From a virus, in the IMG/VR virus record IMGVR_UViG_3300030329_003953, positions 1-22,365 of that record: a stretch of DNA of 22,365 nt; one strand, written 5' to 3'. This document shows, in pieces, positions 5,606-13,669 of the stretch. Both the position numbers and the translations under genes were made by a program. The number at the start of each line of letters is the position of its first letter. Position 1 is the first letter of the stretch. The notes below the pieces were generated by a model. That model was not told the origin of the DNA and did no database searches. It was given only the letters and a program-made list of their open reading frames with translations.

Positions 5606-5971
5606 TTAGTCCCTTAACAAAAATCCCTCGAGCGCGGCCTCCCCTCTGCGTTTTTTCTCGTAAACATTGCGACGACTCAACCCGGAGCGCTTGACCGTCT
5701 CATCCAACCCCAACGTATAAAACATCCGCGTGATTTCGACGTCCTGCCCCATCCGGCTTTCTAGTAAGTGGTTCATCGCTTTCTGCACACGCCCCAATCC
5801 CGGCGGTGGTAACACCCCGGACGGAATGCTGGATTGAAAGCCACTTTCACCGGGCGAGTTCCGCAGGCGCCAGATGGGGGTCGATCCGGGATAACCCGAT
5901 TCCTCCGAGTTGTACCAAGCAGCCCAATCTTTTAACAGTTCCACGATTTCAGACAATCTACGAAACACCAT
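5606..5971 (-). CDS. Candidate late-gene antiterminator (Q-like) with sigma-4-type HTH
   Basis: The 121-residue protein has a tryptophan-rich N-terminal part (LKDWAAWYNSEESGYP) typical of small phage Q/antitermination-type regulators. Its C-terminal half reads as a sigma region 4-like helix-turn-helix: 'VQKAMNHLLESRMGQDVEITRMFYTLGLDETVKRSGLS...', followed by a basic recognition helix (SRRNVYEKKRRGEAALEGFL). It is the last regulator of the leftward early operon and lies upstream of the lysis region, where lambdoid phages carry Q. The ATG at 5971 is used; a TTG sits directly before it. No good ribosome site is seen. The Q role is inferred from position and fold. Confidence 0.6.
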   Translation of the reverse strand: MVFRRLSEIVELLKDWAAWYNSEESGYPGSTPIWRLRNSPGESGFQSSIPSGVLPPPGLGRVQKAMNHLLESRMGQDVEITRMFYTLGLDETVKRSGLSRRNVYEKKRRGEAALEGFLLRD

Positions 5972-5986
5972 CAACGAGAAACCGAT

Positions 5987-7306: not shown

Positions 7307-7957
7307 TCATCCCTCCGGTATTTCTGAAACGTAGTCGGCGAACTTGCTCTGTCGGAACAACGTCCCGATCCGAATATATTTTTTCATTTCGTCATCGTCT
7401 CCCCACTCGCGATTTTTGCGCACAATCACAGCCCTACAATCGTCCTCTGAATATCCCGCTTTCAGAATGTCGACGACAGCATCCAAACTTGCTCCATGCG
7501 GTCGGGCGTGTTTACCGCATTTACGATTGAAAAAATCGATGACGTTCTTCGCTGACTCTGAAAAATTCTTTTTATTTATATTTTTGTTTCTTTGATGGTT
7601 AATTGATGGTTCTAATAGTCCTGCATCTAATGCACACCCCCCTGCATTAGACGCAGTACCGTCCTGCATCTGGCGCAGGGGTTCGACGCCATTTAGTGCT
7701 GCATCTCGTGCAGGGGTCAGCACATAATTCGATGCCCTGCCCGGCACACGATCAACGCGCAAATAATGCTCGGTTTCTAGGAACTGAATCGCGGCCCGAA
7801 TCGCTCTTTGTTTTAATCCTGTCCGCCTCGAAATACTGCCAACGGAAGGCCAACAAAGACCATCGTCATTGGCCTGATCAGCCAAGGAAATTAACACCAG
7901 CTTTTGAGACGGACTCACTTGCACATCCCACGCCTGCGATAAAATTTTTGTGCTCAA
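7307..7957 (-). CDS. Replication initiator, O-like (HTH plus Phg_2220_C-type domain)
   Basis: The 216-residue protein has an N-terminal winged helix-turn-helix (residues about 15-80, 'KLVLISLADQANDDGLCWPSVGSISRRTGLKQRAIRAAI'), typical of phage O-type initiators. A low-complexity linker (about 85-132) follows, then a C-terminal 'conserved phage' domain (about 135-210: VIDFFNRKCGKHARP, ...EWGDDDEMKKYIRIGTLF). It would bind origin iterons and recruit the host replisome. The linker DNA itself contains four repeats that look like the origin (7621-7713). The start codon is TTG at 7957, within TTGA that includes the stop of the Cro-like gene, so translation is probably coupled. No nearby helicase gene is seen, so host DnaB is probably recruited. 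Confidence 0.8.
   Translation of the reverse strand: MSTKILSQAWDVQVSPSQKLVLISLADQANDDGLCWPSVGSISRRTGLKQRAIRAAIQFLETEHYLRVDRVPGRASNYVLTPARDAALNGVEPLRQMQDGTASNAGGCALDAGLLEPSINHQRNKNINKKNFSESAKNVIDFFNRKCGKHARPHGASLDAVVDILKAGYSEDDCRAVIVRKNREWGDDDEMKKYIRIGTLFRQSKFADYVSEIPEG
7621..7713. other. Putative replication origin: four iterons in the initiator gene
   Basis: Four related 14-15 bp repeats with dyad symmetry, consensus CTGCATCTNNYGCAG, start at 7621, 7642, 7664 and 7699, so the first three are spaced 21-22 bp (two helical turns). They lie in the linker-coding part of the O-like gene. A T-rich stretch (about 7558-7619) lies next to them and could be the unwinding region. Lambda has the same layout, with iterons and an AT-rich region inside gene O. 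Confidence 0.65.
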
Positions 7958-8175
7958 AGACGCCAGTCGCCGGGATAGAATTTGGGTTTGAAATTCTCTG
8001 CTTTGATGGCTCCTTGCGATGCGTTCGCGACCGCCTCTCGGCGACTTTCCGGGACGAAATTATCACTACGCCATTTGTAAAAACCGTCCCTCGAAATGCC
8101 GCAATTTTGCGCGAAATCTGTTACGGTTTTGCCGCTGCTCCTCAGCGCTTTTTTGAGTAAATCAGTATGGTTCAT
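7954..8175 (-). CDS. Cro-like helix-turn-helix regulator
   Basis: From the ATG at 8175 the product is 73 residues. It is one small HTH: helix 'TDLLKKALRSSGK' (about 4-16), then 'TVTDFAQNCGISRDGFYKWRSDNFVPESRREAVANAS' (about 17-53), with 'FAQNCGISRDGFYKWR' as the turn and recognition helix. Small single-domain Cro-like proteins repress the opposing immunity promoter and favour lytic growth. It starts the leftward early operon and is divergent from the HTH/PAS operon, with a 17-bp palindromic operator 21 bases upstream. Its stop overlaps the TTG start of the O-like gene. A longer upstream frame exists but would cover the operator and is rejected. Confidence 0.8.
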   Translation of the reverse strand: MNHTDLLKKALRSSGKTVTDFAQNCGISRDGFYKWRSDNFVPESRREAVANASQGAIKAENFKPKFYPGDWRL

Positions 8176-8195: not shown

Positions 8196-8212
8196 GTTTA
8201 GTATCACTAAAC
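8196..8212. promoter_or_regulatory. 17-bp palindromic operator
   Basis: GTTTAGT-ATC-ACTAAAC is a perfect 7+3+7 inverted repeat, the size of lambdoid operators. It lies 21 bases upstream of the Cro-like start codon, where it would cover that gene's promoter. No second perfect copy was found in the region. Confidence 0.7.
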
Positions 8213-8254: not shown

Positions 8255-8283
8255 TTGACGGGAATCGAATGTACCTTTATCGT
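8255..8283 (+). promoter_or_regulatory. Candidate promoter of the HTH/PAS immunity operon
   Basis: TTGACG (8255-8260; 5/6 to consensus), 17 bases and TATCGT (8278-8283; 4/6) read towards the HTH gene. Transcription would start near 8290, giving a leader of about 100 bases that contains the inverted repeat at 8331-8363. Confidence 0.55.
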
Positions 8284-8330: not shown

Positions 8331-8363
8331 GCGAGACCAATGTCAAAATAGATCTGGTCTCGC
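8331..8363. promoter_or_regulatory. 9-bp inverted repeat in the immunity leader
   Basis: GCGAGACCA (8331-8339) and TGGTCTCGC (8355-8363) are perfect inverted copies separated by 15 bases, ending 27 bases before the HTH start codon. The same AGACC/GGTCT core also occurs at 8232-8236 and 8293-8297. It may be a protein-binding site or an RNA stem controlling translation. Confidence 0.55.
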
Positions 8364-8390: not shown

Positions 8391-8792
8391 ATGCCTAAAT
8401 TAAACACCGCTGCCCTGCGGCGGTTGATCGATGAACGCTATGGTGGTGTTCAACAACGTTTCTTAAATGACTTTAAATTGACTCGCAAAGCGATCGGCCA
8501 ATGGTATGCCGATGGGTTGGTGACGGATAAACGCCTAAAAGAGCTGTGCGATCACTTTTCAGTCGATCGTTCAGAGCTTGACCTCGAAGCCCTCGATATC
8601 GACATGGAAACTTTCATGCGCATATACGAGGTGCTTGAAAAACGTGCAGAGGAAGCCGGGGTGTCGATCCCGGCGAAAAGTCTGATTCACTGGACGGGAC
8701 TGAACTACCGCAAATTCGCGGATTCAAAGGGAACGGTGGATGTCGAAGTGTTCGACACGTTTCTGGAAACACAAAAGGAGAACAAAAAATAA
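8391..8792 (+). CDS. HTH immunity regulator (repressor candidate)
   Basis: The 133-residue protein has an N-terminal helix-turn-helix at about residues 18-60: 'GVQQRFLNDFKLTRKAIGQWYADGLVTDKRLKELCDHFSVDRSEL'. The C-terminal part is acidic and helical (DMETFMRIYEVLEKRAEEAG) and may dimerise. It lacks the LexA/S24 self-cleaving domain of lambda CI, so induction must depend on something other than RecA-driven cleavage. A GGAG ribosome site precedes the ATG at 8391. It is divergent from the Cro-like gene, as a repressor would be, and is followed by the PAS protein 18 bases later in the same operon. Which of the two HTH proteins keeps lysogeny is inferred from position. Confidence 0.75.
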   Translation: MPKLNTAALRRLIDERYGGVQQRFLNDFKLTRKAIGQWYADGLVTDKRLKELCDHFSVDRSELDLEALDIDMETFMRIYEVLEKRAEEAGVSIPAKSLIHWTGLNYRKFADSKGTVDVEVFDTFLETQKENKK

Positions 8793-8810
8793 TCGGGGAG
8801 GTTTATTACT

Positions 8811-9707
8811 ATGTTGCGCGAAATAAAAACGTCAGTCGACAATCAGATTCGACTACACGTCCGGGACTTCACTGCCCCGGTTATTGTCTGCAGGGAGCGT
8901 GATGGGGTGATGGCGTTTGTCTGCGAGCGAATGGCAGACCTGTTGGGCTTTGAACAGAGCGATTTGATTGGCGCCCACCGTCATAAAATTATGGTGAACA
9001 ATACGGACTTCTACGGGGAAGAAACCCGCACCCAGTTGCGCTTGAAAAACAACGGACAGGCTGAGGTGTTCTTTCACAATGACTTTCGAGATTTCGACAA
9101 CGAGCGTTATGCCGTAGGCACCGTCACCGATTTTCATTTATTGAACGATTCGACGAAACATCTTTTAGAAGACTATATGGAGTTTTCAAAACAATATTCT
9201 CCTCGCATCATTTCCGGCTTCAACGACGTTGAGATTCTCGACCTGCTACCGATTGGCGTGGCTTGCCTGGCGCTTTGCGACGACCCATTTTTTGTTTACG
9301 TCAACGATCATTTCTGTAAAGGCATCGGATATAGATGTGAGGATTTGTTGTCGGGTCGTGTGAAAACTCACGACATTTCGGTCGAGCAGTTTCGGATGAG
9401 TGATGTGGTCAGCCCGATCGGCAATTTCGACAACTCTTTAAACGGTTTTTACCACCATAAACAGTGGCGCCACAAAGCGGGTCATATCGTCGAAGGTCGT
9501 GTGTTGACAACGAAGGTCGCGTTCGCAGGCGAGAACATTGAATATGCGCTTTCCGTAATTTCTTTTCGGCGCGGGAATGCGTACCAGTTTGCCAAAACAC
9601 CCGCGGCCATAAAAAGGACTGCGGAACTGACAAACCAAACTCCGGAGCAGGTAATCGAGGTTTGTGAAACCTTGCAGCGGGAGGGATTTTTGCAATTTCC
9701 TGACTAA
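8811..9707 (+). CDS. Double PAS-domain sensor protein
   Basis: This 298-residue protein has two PAS-like domains. The first (residues about 20-110) shows 'VIVCRERDGVMAFVCERMADLLGFEQSDLIGAHRHKI' and a C-terminal beta set ending 'AVGTVTDFH'. The second (about 140-255) shows 'LDLLPIGVACLALCDDPFFVYVNDHFCKGIGYRCEDLLSG' and 'YALSVISFR'. The end (about 265-298) is a helical segment, 'TPEQVIEVCETLQREGFLQF', like a small winged-helix fragment. PAS domains bind small ligands, haem or flavin, or mediate dimers. There is no kinase or GGDEF domain, and no LOV-type NCRFLQ motif. A GGGAGG site precedes the ATG. As the second gene of the immunity operon it may tune the repressor to a host signal; this is inference. 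Confidence 0.75.
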   Translation: MLREIKTSVDNQIRLHVRDFTAPVIVCRERDGVMAFVCERMADLLGFEQSDLIGAHRHKIMVNNTDFYGEETRTQLRLKNNGQAEVFFHNDFRDFDNERYAVGTVTDFHLLNDSTKHLLEDYMEFSKQYSPRIISGFNDVEILDLLPIGVACLALCDDPFFVYVNDHFCKGIGYRCEDLLSGRVKTHDISVEQFRMSDVVSPIGNFDNSLNGFYHHKQWRHKAGHIVEGRVLTTKVAFAGENIEYALSVISFRRGNAYQFAKTPAAIKRTAELTNQTPEQVIEVCETLQREGFLQFPD

Positions 9708-9720
9708 TTTTCGTTTTTTT

Positions 9721-9741
9721 TGCCCCCTTTCGGGGGTTTTT
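9721..9741. terminator. Intrinsic terminator after the immunity operon
   Basis: CCCCC (9723-9727) and GGGGG (9732-9736) form a stem with a TTTC loop, followed by five T residues on the plus strand and preceded by a T-run that gives an A-run on the other side. It ends the HTH/PAS operon and separates it from the recombination operon. Confidence 0.85.
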
Positions 9742-9816
9742 CTTGTCTCTTTGTGTTTACTTTTAATATACTTTTAGTTATCTTCTATTACGTATTGTAA
9801 ATAAACGAGATACAAA

Positions 9817-10425: not shown

Positions 10426-11022
10426 ATGACAGACGAAAAAATACCGAACATCTACGAGCGCATTTTAGCCGTCATGGATGATTTGCACTATGTACAAAAA
10501 GAGAACAAAAAAGTAAACAATCAATACTCCTTTGTTTCTCACGATGCGGTTACTGCCGCACTGCACCCTCTTTTAGTAAAGCATCGCATTGTAATGATCC
10601 CGTCTATCGTGGAACACACGATAGATGGTAATCGCACCACCGCGACTGTCAGCGTAGCGTTTGTGAATCCAGACGAACCGGATGATCGGGTTGTCAGCAC
10701 CTTTGTAGGATTCGGAATCGACAATCAGGACAAGGGAATTGGCAAGGCCGTCAGCTATGCCACTAAATACGCGATCCTGAAAACCTTTGTACTTGAGACC
10801 GGGGATGATCCCGAGCGCGATCAAATTGATTTTGAGCCGGGTTTCATTTCTGACTCGGAAATCGAATCACTGACCGAACTGATTGAAAACACGGGAACCA
10901 ACCTCGATAAGTTTTGTTCCCATTATCGGATCAACAATCTACAGGCGATGCCGAAAAACAGACTTGATGAGGCGGTCAATGCCCTCAGCAAAAAACGGGA
11001 GAAAGTTCATGCAGTTGCTTGA
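10426..11022 (+). CDS. erf: ERF-family single-strand annealing recombinase
   Basis: The 198-residue protein carries the ERF pattern: 'IYERILAVMDDLHYVQKENKK...YSFVSHDAVTAALHPLLVKHRIVMIPSIV' (residues about 6-66), with 'TATVSVAFVNPDEPDDRVVSTFVGFGIDNQDKGIGKAVSYATKYAILKTFVLETGDDPE' (about 71-130) as the core strand and loop. ERF proteins anneal single strands and serve phage recombination and circularisation. The start at 10426 is 12 bases after a GGGGG stretch. The YqaJ exonuclease begins inside its last codons (14-base overlap), which matches the usual annealase-exonuclease pairing. The C-terminal 60 residues are helical and less conserved. Confidence 0.9.
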   Translation: MTDEKIPNIYERILAVMDDLHYVQKENKKVNNQYSFVSHDAVTAALHPLLVKHRIVMIPSIVEHTIDGNRTTATVSVAFVNPDEPDDRVVSTFVGFGIDNQDKGIGKAVSYATKYAILKTFVLETGDDPERDQIDFEPGFISDSEIESLTELIENTGTNLDKFCSHYRINNLQAMPKNRLDEAVNALSKKREKVHAVA

Positions 11023-11899
11023 TGTAGAACAAGGCACCGACGAATGGCTCGCTCTGCGCAAAAAGTATTTTACGGCAAGCGAAGCCCCGGCAGTGATGGG
11101 CGCCGGATTATATGAGGTGAAAACCCCGAAAGATTTGGTAGCTCAAAAACAGGGACGGCTCAACAGCCAACCCTACGCGCCTGCTTTACAACACGGTCAT
11201 GACAGGGAGCCGCACATTCGCAAACGTTGCGAAGCGCTGCTCGGCGAATCATTTGTGCCTCAAGTCTGTGTCGAAGGGCAGTATTTGAGGTCAAGCGATG
11301 GCCTTAATATGGATCAAAACATCGACCTTGAAATCAAAGCGCCCTATAGCCCCAAGAGCAAAATTTTACAAGCCGCCAGGAAGGGCGAGATTTTAGACGC
11401 ACATCGGTGGCAGCTTGATCATTCGCTCCTTGTCACAGGATGCGAAAAGGTCGTCTTTGCGGTCGAAGATGCGGAAAACAACGATGTGATTTTGATCGAC
11501 TATTTACCGGATTTAGAACGCCGGGAGCAACTCATCGAAGGATGGCGGCGCTTCGCAGAACTTATGAAAGAAAAGCCGATCGAAACATCCGTCATTGCGG
11601 ACGATTTAGAACCGACGATTCAATCCTATTTGATGGCGAAAGATGAGGTGGAACGAGCTACCGAATATATGCACGCAATTCGATCGCAGATTTTGAATGA
11701 GTTGGACTCAGACAAAGAATGGGTCGCGCCGAACATTACGCTGGTTGTAAAAACGGTCACGCCAAAAGAGAAAACGGATTACAAACAACTTGTGACCGAC
11801 AACCTTGAGCTTCTGAAGGATGTCGATTTTGCAAAGTACAAAAAACAACCCAAGCCCTATCAAACAATTTTGGACAAAAGGAAAAAACAGAATGGCTGA
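11009..11899 (+). CDS. YqaJ-type (lambda exonuclease-like) recombinase exonuclease
   Basis: From the ATG at 11009 this is a 296-residue YqaJ-family nuclease. The N-terminus 'GTDEWLALRKKYFTASEAPAVMGAG' and the core 'LRSSDGLNMDQNIDLEIKAPYSP', with its D-(Q/E)...EIK metal site, are typical. 'HRWQLDHSLLVTGCEKVVFAVE' is the third conserved block. It degrades one strand of double-stranded ends so that the ERF annealase can load. The C-terminal 90 residues (about 200-296) contain a helical region that may bind the partner. It overlaps the ERF gene by 14 bases and the SSB-like gene by 8, so the three are coupled. A longer upstream frame is only the ERF gene out of frame. Confidence 0.9.
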   Translation: MQLLDVEQGTDEWLALRKKYFTASEAPAVMGAGLYEVKTPKDLVAQKQGRLNSQPYAPALQHGHDREPHIRKRCEALLGESFVPQVCVEGQYLRSSDGLNMDQNIDLEIKAPYSPKSKILQAARKGEILDAHRWQLDHSLLVTGCEKVVFAVEDAENNDVILIDYLPDLERREQLIEGWRRFAELMKEKPIETSVIADDLEPTIQSYLMAKDEVERATEYMHAIRSQILNELDSDKEWVAPNITLVVKTVTPKEKTDYKQLVTDNLELLKDVDFAKYKKQPKPYQTILDKRKKQNG

Positions 11900-12278
11900 A
11901 TATCATTTGAGCGGAGAGATTACCGCAATTCAAGAACCGAGAACGGTTGGCAATAATTTCACTTTTAGAGAGTTCGTTGTCATGACGCCCGATGAAAAAT
12001 ACCCGCAACCGATTTGCTTACAAGTTGGCGGCAAGACCCTGCACATTCTGGATGATTTTCACGTCGGCGATCAAGTCCGGGCAGAGTTCAACTTGCGGGG
12101 CCGGGAATGGCAAGGCGATAACGGAACGCGATATTTCAACACGTTGTCTGTGTGGCGCATGGAGTTGCTTGAAAGTCGCAAACCAAAAACGAACGGCGAT
12201 TCACAACATTTCGACGATCGGAATCCACCGCCCATCAGCGACAGTGATATCCCATTCGACGACAAAATACCATTCTAG
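11892..12278 (+). CDS. SSB-like OB-fold protein (DUF3127)
   Basis: From the ATG at 11892 the product is 128 residues. It matches the DUF3127 pattern: 'YHLSGEITAIQEPRTVGNNFTFREFVVMT' (about 3-31), 'YPQPICLQVGGK' and 'FNLRGREWQGDNGTRYFNTLSVWRM'. This reads as a five-stranded OB fold. The C-terminus is an acidic tail ending in 'DIPFDDKIPF', closely like the DDDIPF tip by which bacterial SSB recruits partner proteins. It probably binds single-stranded DNA during the ERF/YqaJ reaction and may contact host replication proteins. It follows the exonuclease with an 8-base overlap. Confidence 0.8.
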   Translation: MAEYHLSGEITAIQEPRTVGNNFTFREFVVMTPDEKYPQPICLQVGGKTLHILDDFHVGDQVRAEFNLRGREWQGDNGTRYFNTLSVWRMELLESRKPKTNGDSQHFDDRNPPPISDSDIPFDDKIPF

Positions 12279-12286
12279 GAGGTTGT

Positions 12287-12487
12287 ATGGACAATCTGAA
12301 CCTTTTATCTTCCGAGGATTTGTTTAATCTGACTGGCCGTAAACAAAAAGAAAAACAAATCGCAATGCTGCAACGAATGGGCATTGATCATTTCACGCGA
12401 TGGGACGGGAAGCCTGTTGTTACTTGGCATCAAGTCAATTCTGCAAAGGGCGACAGGGAGTTCGTGCCGAAATTCGCAGAAAAATAA
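12287..12487 (+). CDS. DUF4224 protein, possible excisionase or DNA-binding accessory
   Basis: This 66-residue protein has a strong AGGAGG site ahead of the ATG. The phrase 'LSSEDLFNLTGRKQKEKQIAMLQRMGIDHFTRWDGKPVVTW' (about 7-47) is the typical DUF4224 pattern, with a helix-turn-helix-like segment and a short wing. Members of this family lie beside phage integrases very often. Its place 12 bases before the integrase suggests a role in recombination directionality (excision) or regulation of integration. That role is inferred from position; no experiment is known to me. Confidence 0.8.
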   Translation: MDNLNLLSSEDLFNLTGRKQKEKQIAMLQRMGIDHFTRWDGKPVVTWHQVNSAKGDREFVPKFAEK

Positions 12488-12499
12488 AGGGAGCCAATC

Positions 12500-13513
12500 A
12501 TGGGCCGAAAACGCAAGGTGGAGAGTAATCTGCCAAAAGGTGTTGATCGTCATCGAAACCAATTCCGTCTAAGTATAAAACTAGAGGGGAAATGGACGTT
12601 TAAATTTCTAAAAGCTAAAACGATCGGGGAGTGTTGGGCAGAGGTTGAACGAATCAATAGTGTTGGAGTCTACGAGAATACAATCAATTACGGAATTGAT
12701 CGTTATTTGGGATGGTTGAAAAGTCTTGCCGACAACGATGACCGCAAATGGTCTCAAGCCACTTACCGCACCGAGCTTCCTCGGATTCAGCAAGTCCGGG
12801 ACAACTACGGCGACGCCTTTTTTGATCAAGTATCAAGAAACCATTTATACGAATGGCGCGACTTACATCGCAAGGAGCGGGTGCTGCGGCGCTTCCGAAC
12901 AATGTGGAATATGTGGCTTCAGTGGGAGCTAACGACTCACGCTCCGTTCGTTGGTTTTAAATGGACGGCAGACAAAGCTCGGTCGCGCTACATCAGCGAT
13001 GATGAGTTTGATTTAATTTGTCGCGTTTGTTGGGATAAACAACTTACAAACCCGATGGCTCTACGAGTATGGGCTGTTTTGATTCTGACGTATTTAACGG
13101 GCAGGCGTGTCAGCAACATTATTGAGCTACAGTTATCTGCAATCAAACCCGACGGGATTTATTTCACAGAAACAAAAACCGGGTTGAAAACAATCGTGAC
13201 AATGAGTTCCGATTTGGCCGAAGCGATCGCGCTGATCAAAAAAACACTGAGGAGAGATAAGAACATTACCTCGACCCAGTTAATCACCAAAACAAACGGA
13301 CATCCTTTGAACCATCACGATTTCAGTCAGGCGGTCTTGCGGATGCGCCGTCATTTTCGCGATGCGGGCATTGATGACTTTCAGCCCCGCGATTTGCGAG
13401 CGAAATACGGCACAGATCATACACGCGGTCAGGCCAATCTGCGCCATACCAACCCCCGGACTTTCAATAAGCACTATTATCGAAAGCCCATGAAAATCAC
13501 CCCGATTCGGTAG
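12500..13513 (+). CDS. int: Tyrosine-type phage integrase
   Basis: The 337-residue protein is a tyrosine recombinase. Residues 1-60 form an arm-binding-like N-terminus (GVDRHRNQFRLSIKL), about 60-160 the core-binding domain, and about 165-330 the catalytic domain. Visible catalytic residues are Arg202 (TGRR), Lys230 or nearby (TKTGLK), the 'RDLR' block with Arg300, His316 in 'LRHTNPRT', and the nucleophile at Tyr326 or Tyr327 (HYYRK). In the HxxR block the first residue is Arg297 rather than His, as in some phage subfamilies. It has an AGGGAG ribosome site. It lies directly beside the attP core made of a tRNA-Cys end, so it presumably integrates into that gene. Confidence 0.9.
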   Translation: MGRKRKVESNLPKGVDRHRNQFRLSIKLEGKWTFKFLKAKTIGECWAEVERINSVGVYENTINYGIDRYLGWLKSLADNDDRKWSQATYRTELPRIQQVRDNYGDAFFDQVSRNHLYEWRDLHRKERVLRRFRTMWNMWLQWELTTHAPFVGFKWTADKARSRYISDDEFDLICRVCWDKQLTNPMALRVWAVLILTYLTGRRVSNIIELQLSAIKPDGIYFTETKTGLKTIVTMSSDLAEAIALIKKTLRRDKNITSTQLITKTNGHPLNHHDFSQAVLRMRRHFRDAGIDDFQPRDLRAKYGTDHTRGQANLRHTNPRTFNKHYYRKPMKITPIR

Positions 13514-13577: not shown

Positions 13578-13669
13578 AAGTGTTTGATTTCATTGGAGGC
13601 TGAGGCCGGAATCGAACCGGCGTTGACGGCTTTGCAGGCCGTACCAGTTTCTTTTAAAATCAAACACTT
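13578..13669. repeat. 13-bp inverted repeat around the att core
   Basis: AAGTGTTTGATTT (13578-13590) and AAATCAAACACTT (13657-13669) are perfect inverted copies, 3 bases before and 15 after the tRNA-like segment. They may be extra protein sites for excisionase or the integrase core domain, or an RNA stem ending the integrase message. Confidence 0.75.
13594..13641 (-). other. attP core: 3' half of a tRNA-Cys(GCA) gene
   Basis: Read on the minus strand the 48 bases begin CGGCCTGCAAAGCCG, a tRNA anticodon arm with anticodon GCA, and end with a T arm (GCCGGTTCGATTCCGGC) and acceptor end CTCAGCCTCCA with an encoded CCA. The D arm and 5' acceptor strand are missing: the flanking phage bases do not fit them. 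It is not a working tRNA gene. Its identity with a host tRNA-Cys end would let integration restore the host gene. Confidence 0.85.

Follow-up and report, generated by a model that had tools for sequence, protein, structure and literature searches.

The window (the whole stretch of DNA that was analyzed, 22,365 nucleotides) comprises positions 1-22365 of the IMG/VR virus record IMGVR_UViG_3300030329_003953, whose 32,186 bases are an incomplete genome that ends inside the portal gene. Two adjacent genes on its plus strand are the subject of this study. The first (8391-8792) encodes a 133-residue HTH protein that is presumed to be the immunity repressor and has no S24 domain, and the second (8811-9707) encodes a protein of 298 residues with two predicted PAS domains. 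The two ORFs are separated by 18 bases, each has a Shine-Dalgarno-like sequence ahead of it, and at the 3' end of the operon (9722-9737, plus strand) a hairpin with a run of T residues resembles an intrinsic terminator. Divergent from the HTH gene is a 73-residue Cro-like HTH gene (7954-8175, minus strand; phrog_35 repressor, E 4.3e-7), and leftward from it on the minus strand there follow an O-like replication initiation protein (7307-7957), a NinG-like nuclease, a Q-like antiterminator (5606-5974, a weak match with E 0.00034) and an endolysin. The earlier note had described an HTH gene followed after 18 bases by a PAS gene, closed by a single terminator and opposed by a Cro-like gene, and each of these elements was recovered in our analysis.

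Rightward of the terminator, all on the plus strand, lies a P_L-like recombination operon consisting of genes for an Erf-like single-strand annealing protein (10426-11022), a RecE/YqaJ-like exonuclease (11009-11899), a single-strand DNA binding protein (DUF3127, 11892-12278), an excisionase-like protein (12287-12487) and a tyrosine integrase (12500-13513). The resulting gene order, O-cro | HTH-PAS-terminator-erf-exo-ssb-xis-int, is that of lambda, in which the comparable genes are N, rexB, rexA, cI, cro, cII and O with the same relative orientation. Relative to lambda, the HTH gene takes the place of cI and the PAS gene that of rexA. Neither the window nor its relative G056 (see below) has a CII-like gene separating cro from O. 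Directly past the integrase gene, in antisense, is the 3' half of a tRNA-Cys(GCA) gene (13594-13650), which is probably the attachment site (attP) and could name the host, and a viral scan using it as a host clue gave no result. The excisionase and integrase genes, together with this likely attachment site, support the view that the phage, a podovirus of lambda-like organization, is temperate. In other parts of the record, the left end of the window encodes a PAPS-reductase-like protein and a short DNA methyltransferase (397-1284 and 2392-2901), and outside the window (L002:1421-5335) there are large ORFs among the structural genes whose products appear by eye to be glycosyltransferase-like and repeat proteins.

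The 298-residue protein can be divided into PAS1 (residues ~17-110), a helical linker, PAS2 (~140-255) and a winged-helix-like tail (~262-298). The NCBIfam model TIGR00229 matched it in two stretches at 27.8 bits (E 2.2e-6), above the curated cut-off of 22.9, and also matched the homologs from two sister phages, i.e., all three members of the family. Matches of the window protein to Pfam were below the Pfam cut-offs for both PAS2 (PAS_9, E 6.6e-5) and PAS1 (PF00989, E 0.005), and PAS1 of the two sisters exceeded them (PAS_9 at 31.9 and 29.3 bits against 27; PF00989 at 29.5 and 29.2 bits against 22.6). When a profile of the three sequences was compared with the PDB, all 17 chains that matched at E values up to 1 were PAS proteins, each single match being modest (best E 0.009). 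These searches bear out the suggestion, made from the sequence by eye, that the protein carries two PAS domains, and they also lend weak support to the winged-helix-like tail that had been proposed with them, as the tail resembles half a winged helix and residues 258-293 of one sister gave a weak match to TrmB (E 0.0036). An AF2 model of the protein for which no alignment was given had a pLDDT of 31.9, too low to be informative. Neither a kinase, cyclase or GGDEF domain nor any other output domain was detected in the protein, there was no LuxR-type HTH among its Pfam or NCBIfam matches, and a tblastn search of the phage collection returned no match. The presence of YtvA in the list of PDB matches led us to consider whether the protein is a LOV photoreceptor; light sensing of this type is unlikely, since PAS2 does not have what we take to be the LOV flavin-binding cysteine motif.

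The three PAS proteins have diverged unevenly, with identities of 16-25% in PAS1, 33-44% in PAS2 and 32-41% in the tail. Our reading of this pattern is that PAS1 may be a variable input domain and that PAS2 and the tail may form a conserved output that contacts a partner protein or DNA.

The assignment of the HTH protein, which consists of a putative HTH at residues ~9-63 and a C-terminal helical part, draws on a number of weaker signals. No Pfam or NCBIfam HTH model matched the window protein significantly, and the proteins of the sisters matched HTH_26 (E 0.0063, residues 9-63) and HTH_3 (E 0.035 and 0.076) at scores under the Pfam cut-offs. Alignment by hhalign of the HTH family with the N-terminal domains of eleven phage CI/repressor proteins covered residues 18-69 (P 2e-4, probability 46), and a tblastn search of 50,697 phage records with a sister HTH protein had as its sole match an XRE regulator (E 0.01). 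An HMM of one CI sub-family scored the window protein at 0.1 bits, below shuffled sequences; with a broader CI HMM it outranked 2000 shuffles, but at 7.9 bits only. An AF2 model made without an alignment arranges the helices in the manner of an XRE domain; the model is of low confidence, and its comparison by Foldseek/VIA gave no fold match, with a Z of 4.6 to a chain of a repressor complex being tied with unrelated folds. We consider it likely, but not proven, that the HTH protein is of the Cro/CI type (XRE).

That the HTH regulator has no self-cleavage domain, as the earlier note had observed, held across the record: S24 (PF00717) was absent from the three records G000, G053 and G056 in a search that found the positive controls G011 and G014, and although the records are incomplete the HTH gene itself is complete. 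Autocleavable CI/LexA-like repressors with an S24 domain occupy the same position opposite cro-O in other IMG/VR phages (L014 and L017), unlike the HTH protein of the window. A search for the ANT antirepressor domain, also with positive controls, found none in the three incomplete records. As the records are incomplete, an antirepressor or a cleavable repressor may have been missed, and the part of the proposal stating that the phage is induced by a signal instead of by RecA is deduced only from the missing S24 domain in these records.

When IMG/VR, INPHARED, plasmids and GTDB were searched with only the HTH or the PAS protein as the query, no useful close relative emerged. The sister phages surfaced only when the major capsid protein was used as the query, which identified relatives with up to 77% identity, two of which (G056 and G053) encode homologs of the PAS protein (E 1e-46 and 2e-45). 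In both sisters an HTH gene lies directly ahead of the PAS gene, so that the family search for an HTH-PAS pair in other phages suggested previously did uncover an adjacent pair in two IMG/VR phages, and a scan of IMG/VR with an HTH-family profile found G056 and G053 as the only relatives. The HTH proteins of the sisters are 42-48% identical to that of the window and the PAS proteins 30-34%, and the spacing between the genes ranges from 18 nt in the window and 5 nt in G056 to an 8-nt overlap in G053. The number of related phages known to have the pair is three. In most of the relatives found by the capsid protein the immunity region is not covered, and these are silent on the pair. Of the 44 records searched, just two contain a homolog of O, again G056 and G053, so that the PAS gene is present wherever a capsid relative includes the immunity region.

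Other relatives place the pair in a wider context. G050, a 35-kb relative whose capsid protein is 75% identical, has no detected integrase, O, cro, HTH or PAS gene and no operator-like site, and from the joint absence of integrase and pair in this phage it would seem that the pair accompanies the lysogeny module. No PAS gene was present in any of the 45 records of phages reached via O or the exonuclease, and among the phages with a distant O homolog and no PAS gene two carry an S24 repressor. In a phage with a related O protein we observed a gene (L014:5144-6232), convergent with an S24 CI gene, whose 363-residue product resembles a WYL-type sensor by eye. The stretch of G053 from O to the HTH gene (L151:3233-3380) has no detectable cro-like gene, and the switch of this phage may consist of the HTH-PAS side alone.

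The gap between cro and the HTH gene, which corresponds to P_R, contains a 17-bp palindrome, GTTTAGTATCACTAAAC (8196-8212), and the second-best match to this palindrome within the window is a site in the P_L-like gap, GTTTACTTTTAATATAC (9755-9771), that overlaps a promoter-like sequence (9743-9772). Dyad operator-like sites at P_R-like and P_L-like positions are thereby predicted to flank the repressor-like gene, as lambda operators do, and the lambda operators are also 17 bp in length. The pattern GTTTA-N7-TA[AT]AC, which was derived from the sites of the window so that independent support comes from the sites of the sisters only, has five matches in the ~71 kb scanned from the three phages, every one of them in a P_R-like or P_L-like gap, although such gaps make up ~1% of this sequence. 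The chance expectation for the pattern is 0.05 occurrences per window and 0.04 in L152. A sixth copy with one mismatch is in the P_R gap of G053. In addition to the pair being in a lambda-like gene order with xis and int, these flanking sites uphold the contention of the earlier note that the HTH and PAS genes form part of the immunity operon of a temperate phage.

The retention of the sites in G053, which has no detectable cro, favors the HTH protein as the factor that would bind the 17-bp sites. The window and G056 have similar putative recognition helices and P_L sites that differ at one position; in G053 both the putative recognition helix and the site are different. Two further elements are in the region upstream of the HTH gene. 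A promoter-like sequence in the position of P_RM (8255-8283, plus strand) is a consensus match only, of a kind whose frequency here is not above that in shuffled sequences. Closer to the HTH start is a strong inverted repeat, GCGAGACCA-N15-TGGTCTCGC (8331-8363, fold z -5.2), possibly a leader hairpin or an extra operator. We rejected a conserved riboregulator as the identity of this hairpin, there being none in either sister and no match in Rfam.

The reading that we prefer, to which we give a probability of roughly one half, has the HTH protein acting as the immunity repressor and the co-expressed double-PAS protein setting its activity without cleavage. The HTH protein would bind the 17-bp operators in the P_R-like and P_L-like gaps, and the double-PAS protein, made from the same transcript, would serve it as a sensory partner. 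The variable PAS1, alone or together with PAS2, would register a change in the cell, and PAS2 and the winged-helix-like tail, which are better conserved, would relay this state to either the HTH protein or the operators, with the consequence that repression would be kept or released and no cleavage would be needed. Several links in this chain we infer from the arrangement of the locus, namely the role of the HTH protein as the repressor of the phage, the contact of the PAS protein with the HTH protein or its DNA, the sensing of a ligand or redox state by the PAS protein and the dependence of induction on it. The signal might travel by PAS-HTH contact, by binding of the tail to the operators or by another route. 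The conservation of the pair between matching operator-like sites in related viruses suggests that their choice between dormancy and killing may follow a signal from the cell. Non-proteolytic cI repressors are known to require additional phage or host factors (PMC10432266), and the PAS gene is the obvious candidate for such a factor here. A more specific version of the preferred reading, in which immunity is a two-gene system with a non-cleavable repressor at the CI position, the co-transcribed double-PAS protein directly sets operator occupancy, induction follows redox or a metabolite and not SOS, and PAS1 has diverged to read different signals, we advance tentatively, with the odds leaning somewhat against it.

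The slot and orientation of the PAS gene are those of rexA/rexB of lambda and hex of phage 434, each a second gene of a repressor operon located between cI and P_L on the same strand, and RexA homologs adjoin CI-like repressors in other phages (PMC11077077). The PAS protein might on these grounds be a Rex-like accessory of the lysogen that is made with the repressor and guards the host against other phages or alters its behavior, and that does not set the phage's own switch. The fast divergence of the PAS gene (30-34% identity) would suit a gene for exclusion or one in an arms race. However, the PAS protein has no sequence similarity to RexA (BLASTP E 3.7), a protein structurally related to RdgC (PMC11077077, PMC3564112). 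The operon also has no further gene after the PAS gene and ahead of the P_L-like gap, and in each of the three phages where this region is visible the PAS gene comes with the HTH gene, whereas exclusion genes tend to be swapped freely. We regard the Rex-like role as unlikely, while noting that it overlaps with a role in the switch and that the two are not exclusive, since RexA can bias the lambda switch (PMC11077077).

We think it quite improbable, but worth weighing, that the PAS protein senses nothing and is a constitutive structural partner that dimerizes or scaffolds the repressor, either as an obligate co-repressor or as a protector like Hex. The PAS domain of VqmA is required for dimerization and DNA binding (PMC8284805), and the 434 repressor is protected by Hex, whose gene shares its transcript (PMC3564112). 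Two PAS domains, of which PAS1 is highly variable, exceed what dimerization needs, though, and Hex guards a RecA-cleavable repressor against RecA-stimulated cleavage (PMC3564112), whereas no cleavable domain was found in the window phage. Lastly, the weak HTH similarity, the incomplete record and the XRE-LuxR pairs of Aeromonas phages, which are auxiliary modules beside a separate cI (PMC10432266), could be taken to mean that the HTH protein has an auxiliary regulatory role, the activation or tuning of another gene together with the PAS protein, the true repressor being the Cro-like protein or a product of the missing part of the genome, but this is very doubtful given that the HTH gene has the position and orientation of cI opposite cro-O and that operator-like sites flank the HTH-PAS pair in all three phages, including G053 without cro.

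Our preferred reading, that of a repressor whose activity is set by a PAS partner, has parallels in systems already known, as both PAS sensing by a temperate phage and paired operons of an XRE regulator and a sensor have been described. VqmA-phi of the vibriophage VP882 and its relatives is likewise a PAS sensor encoded by a phage, and it decides between lysogeny and lysis without a need for DNA damage (PMC12802170, PMC8284805). VqmA is a single protein with a PAS and a LuxR-type HTH DNA-binding domain and acts via the small antirepressor Qtip on a separate cI, whereas the window phage has two PAS domains and a short tail encoded by a separate gene that is co-transcribed with the repressor-like gene. 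In the Aeromonas phage modules an XRE regulator and a ligand sensor are similarly encoded in one operon of a temperate phage and both are needed for the response (PMC10432266); those modules are extra to an autoproteolytic cI and act via a small ORF, whereas the pair of the window is in the cI position and its sensor is a PAS protein and not LuxR. In the open-licence papers searched we found no separate double-PAS gene paired with a gene at the CI position in a phage without a cleavable repressor.

The induction of prophages with non-cleavable repressors is far less clear than that of prophages whose repressors are cleaved through RecA, and a published screen for induction modules left non-cleavable repressors aside (PMC10432266). 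The locus described here is a compact, testable candidate for such a switch, with one repressor-like gene, one double-PAS gene, two operator-like sites and three diverged natural versions. If our reading is true, PAS-domain sensing wired directly to a repressor would join the short list of phage-encoded lysogeny sensors.
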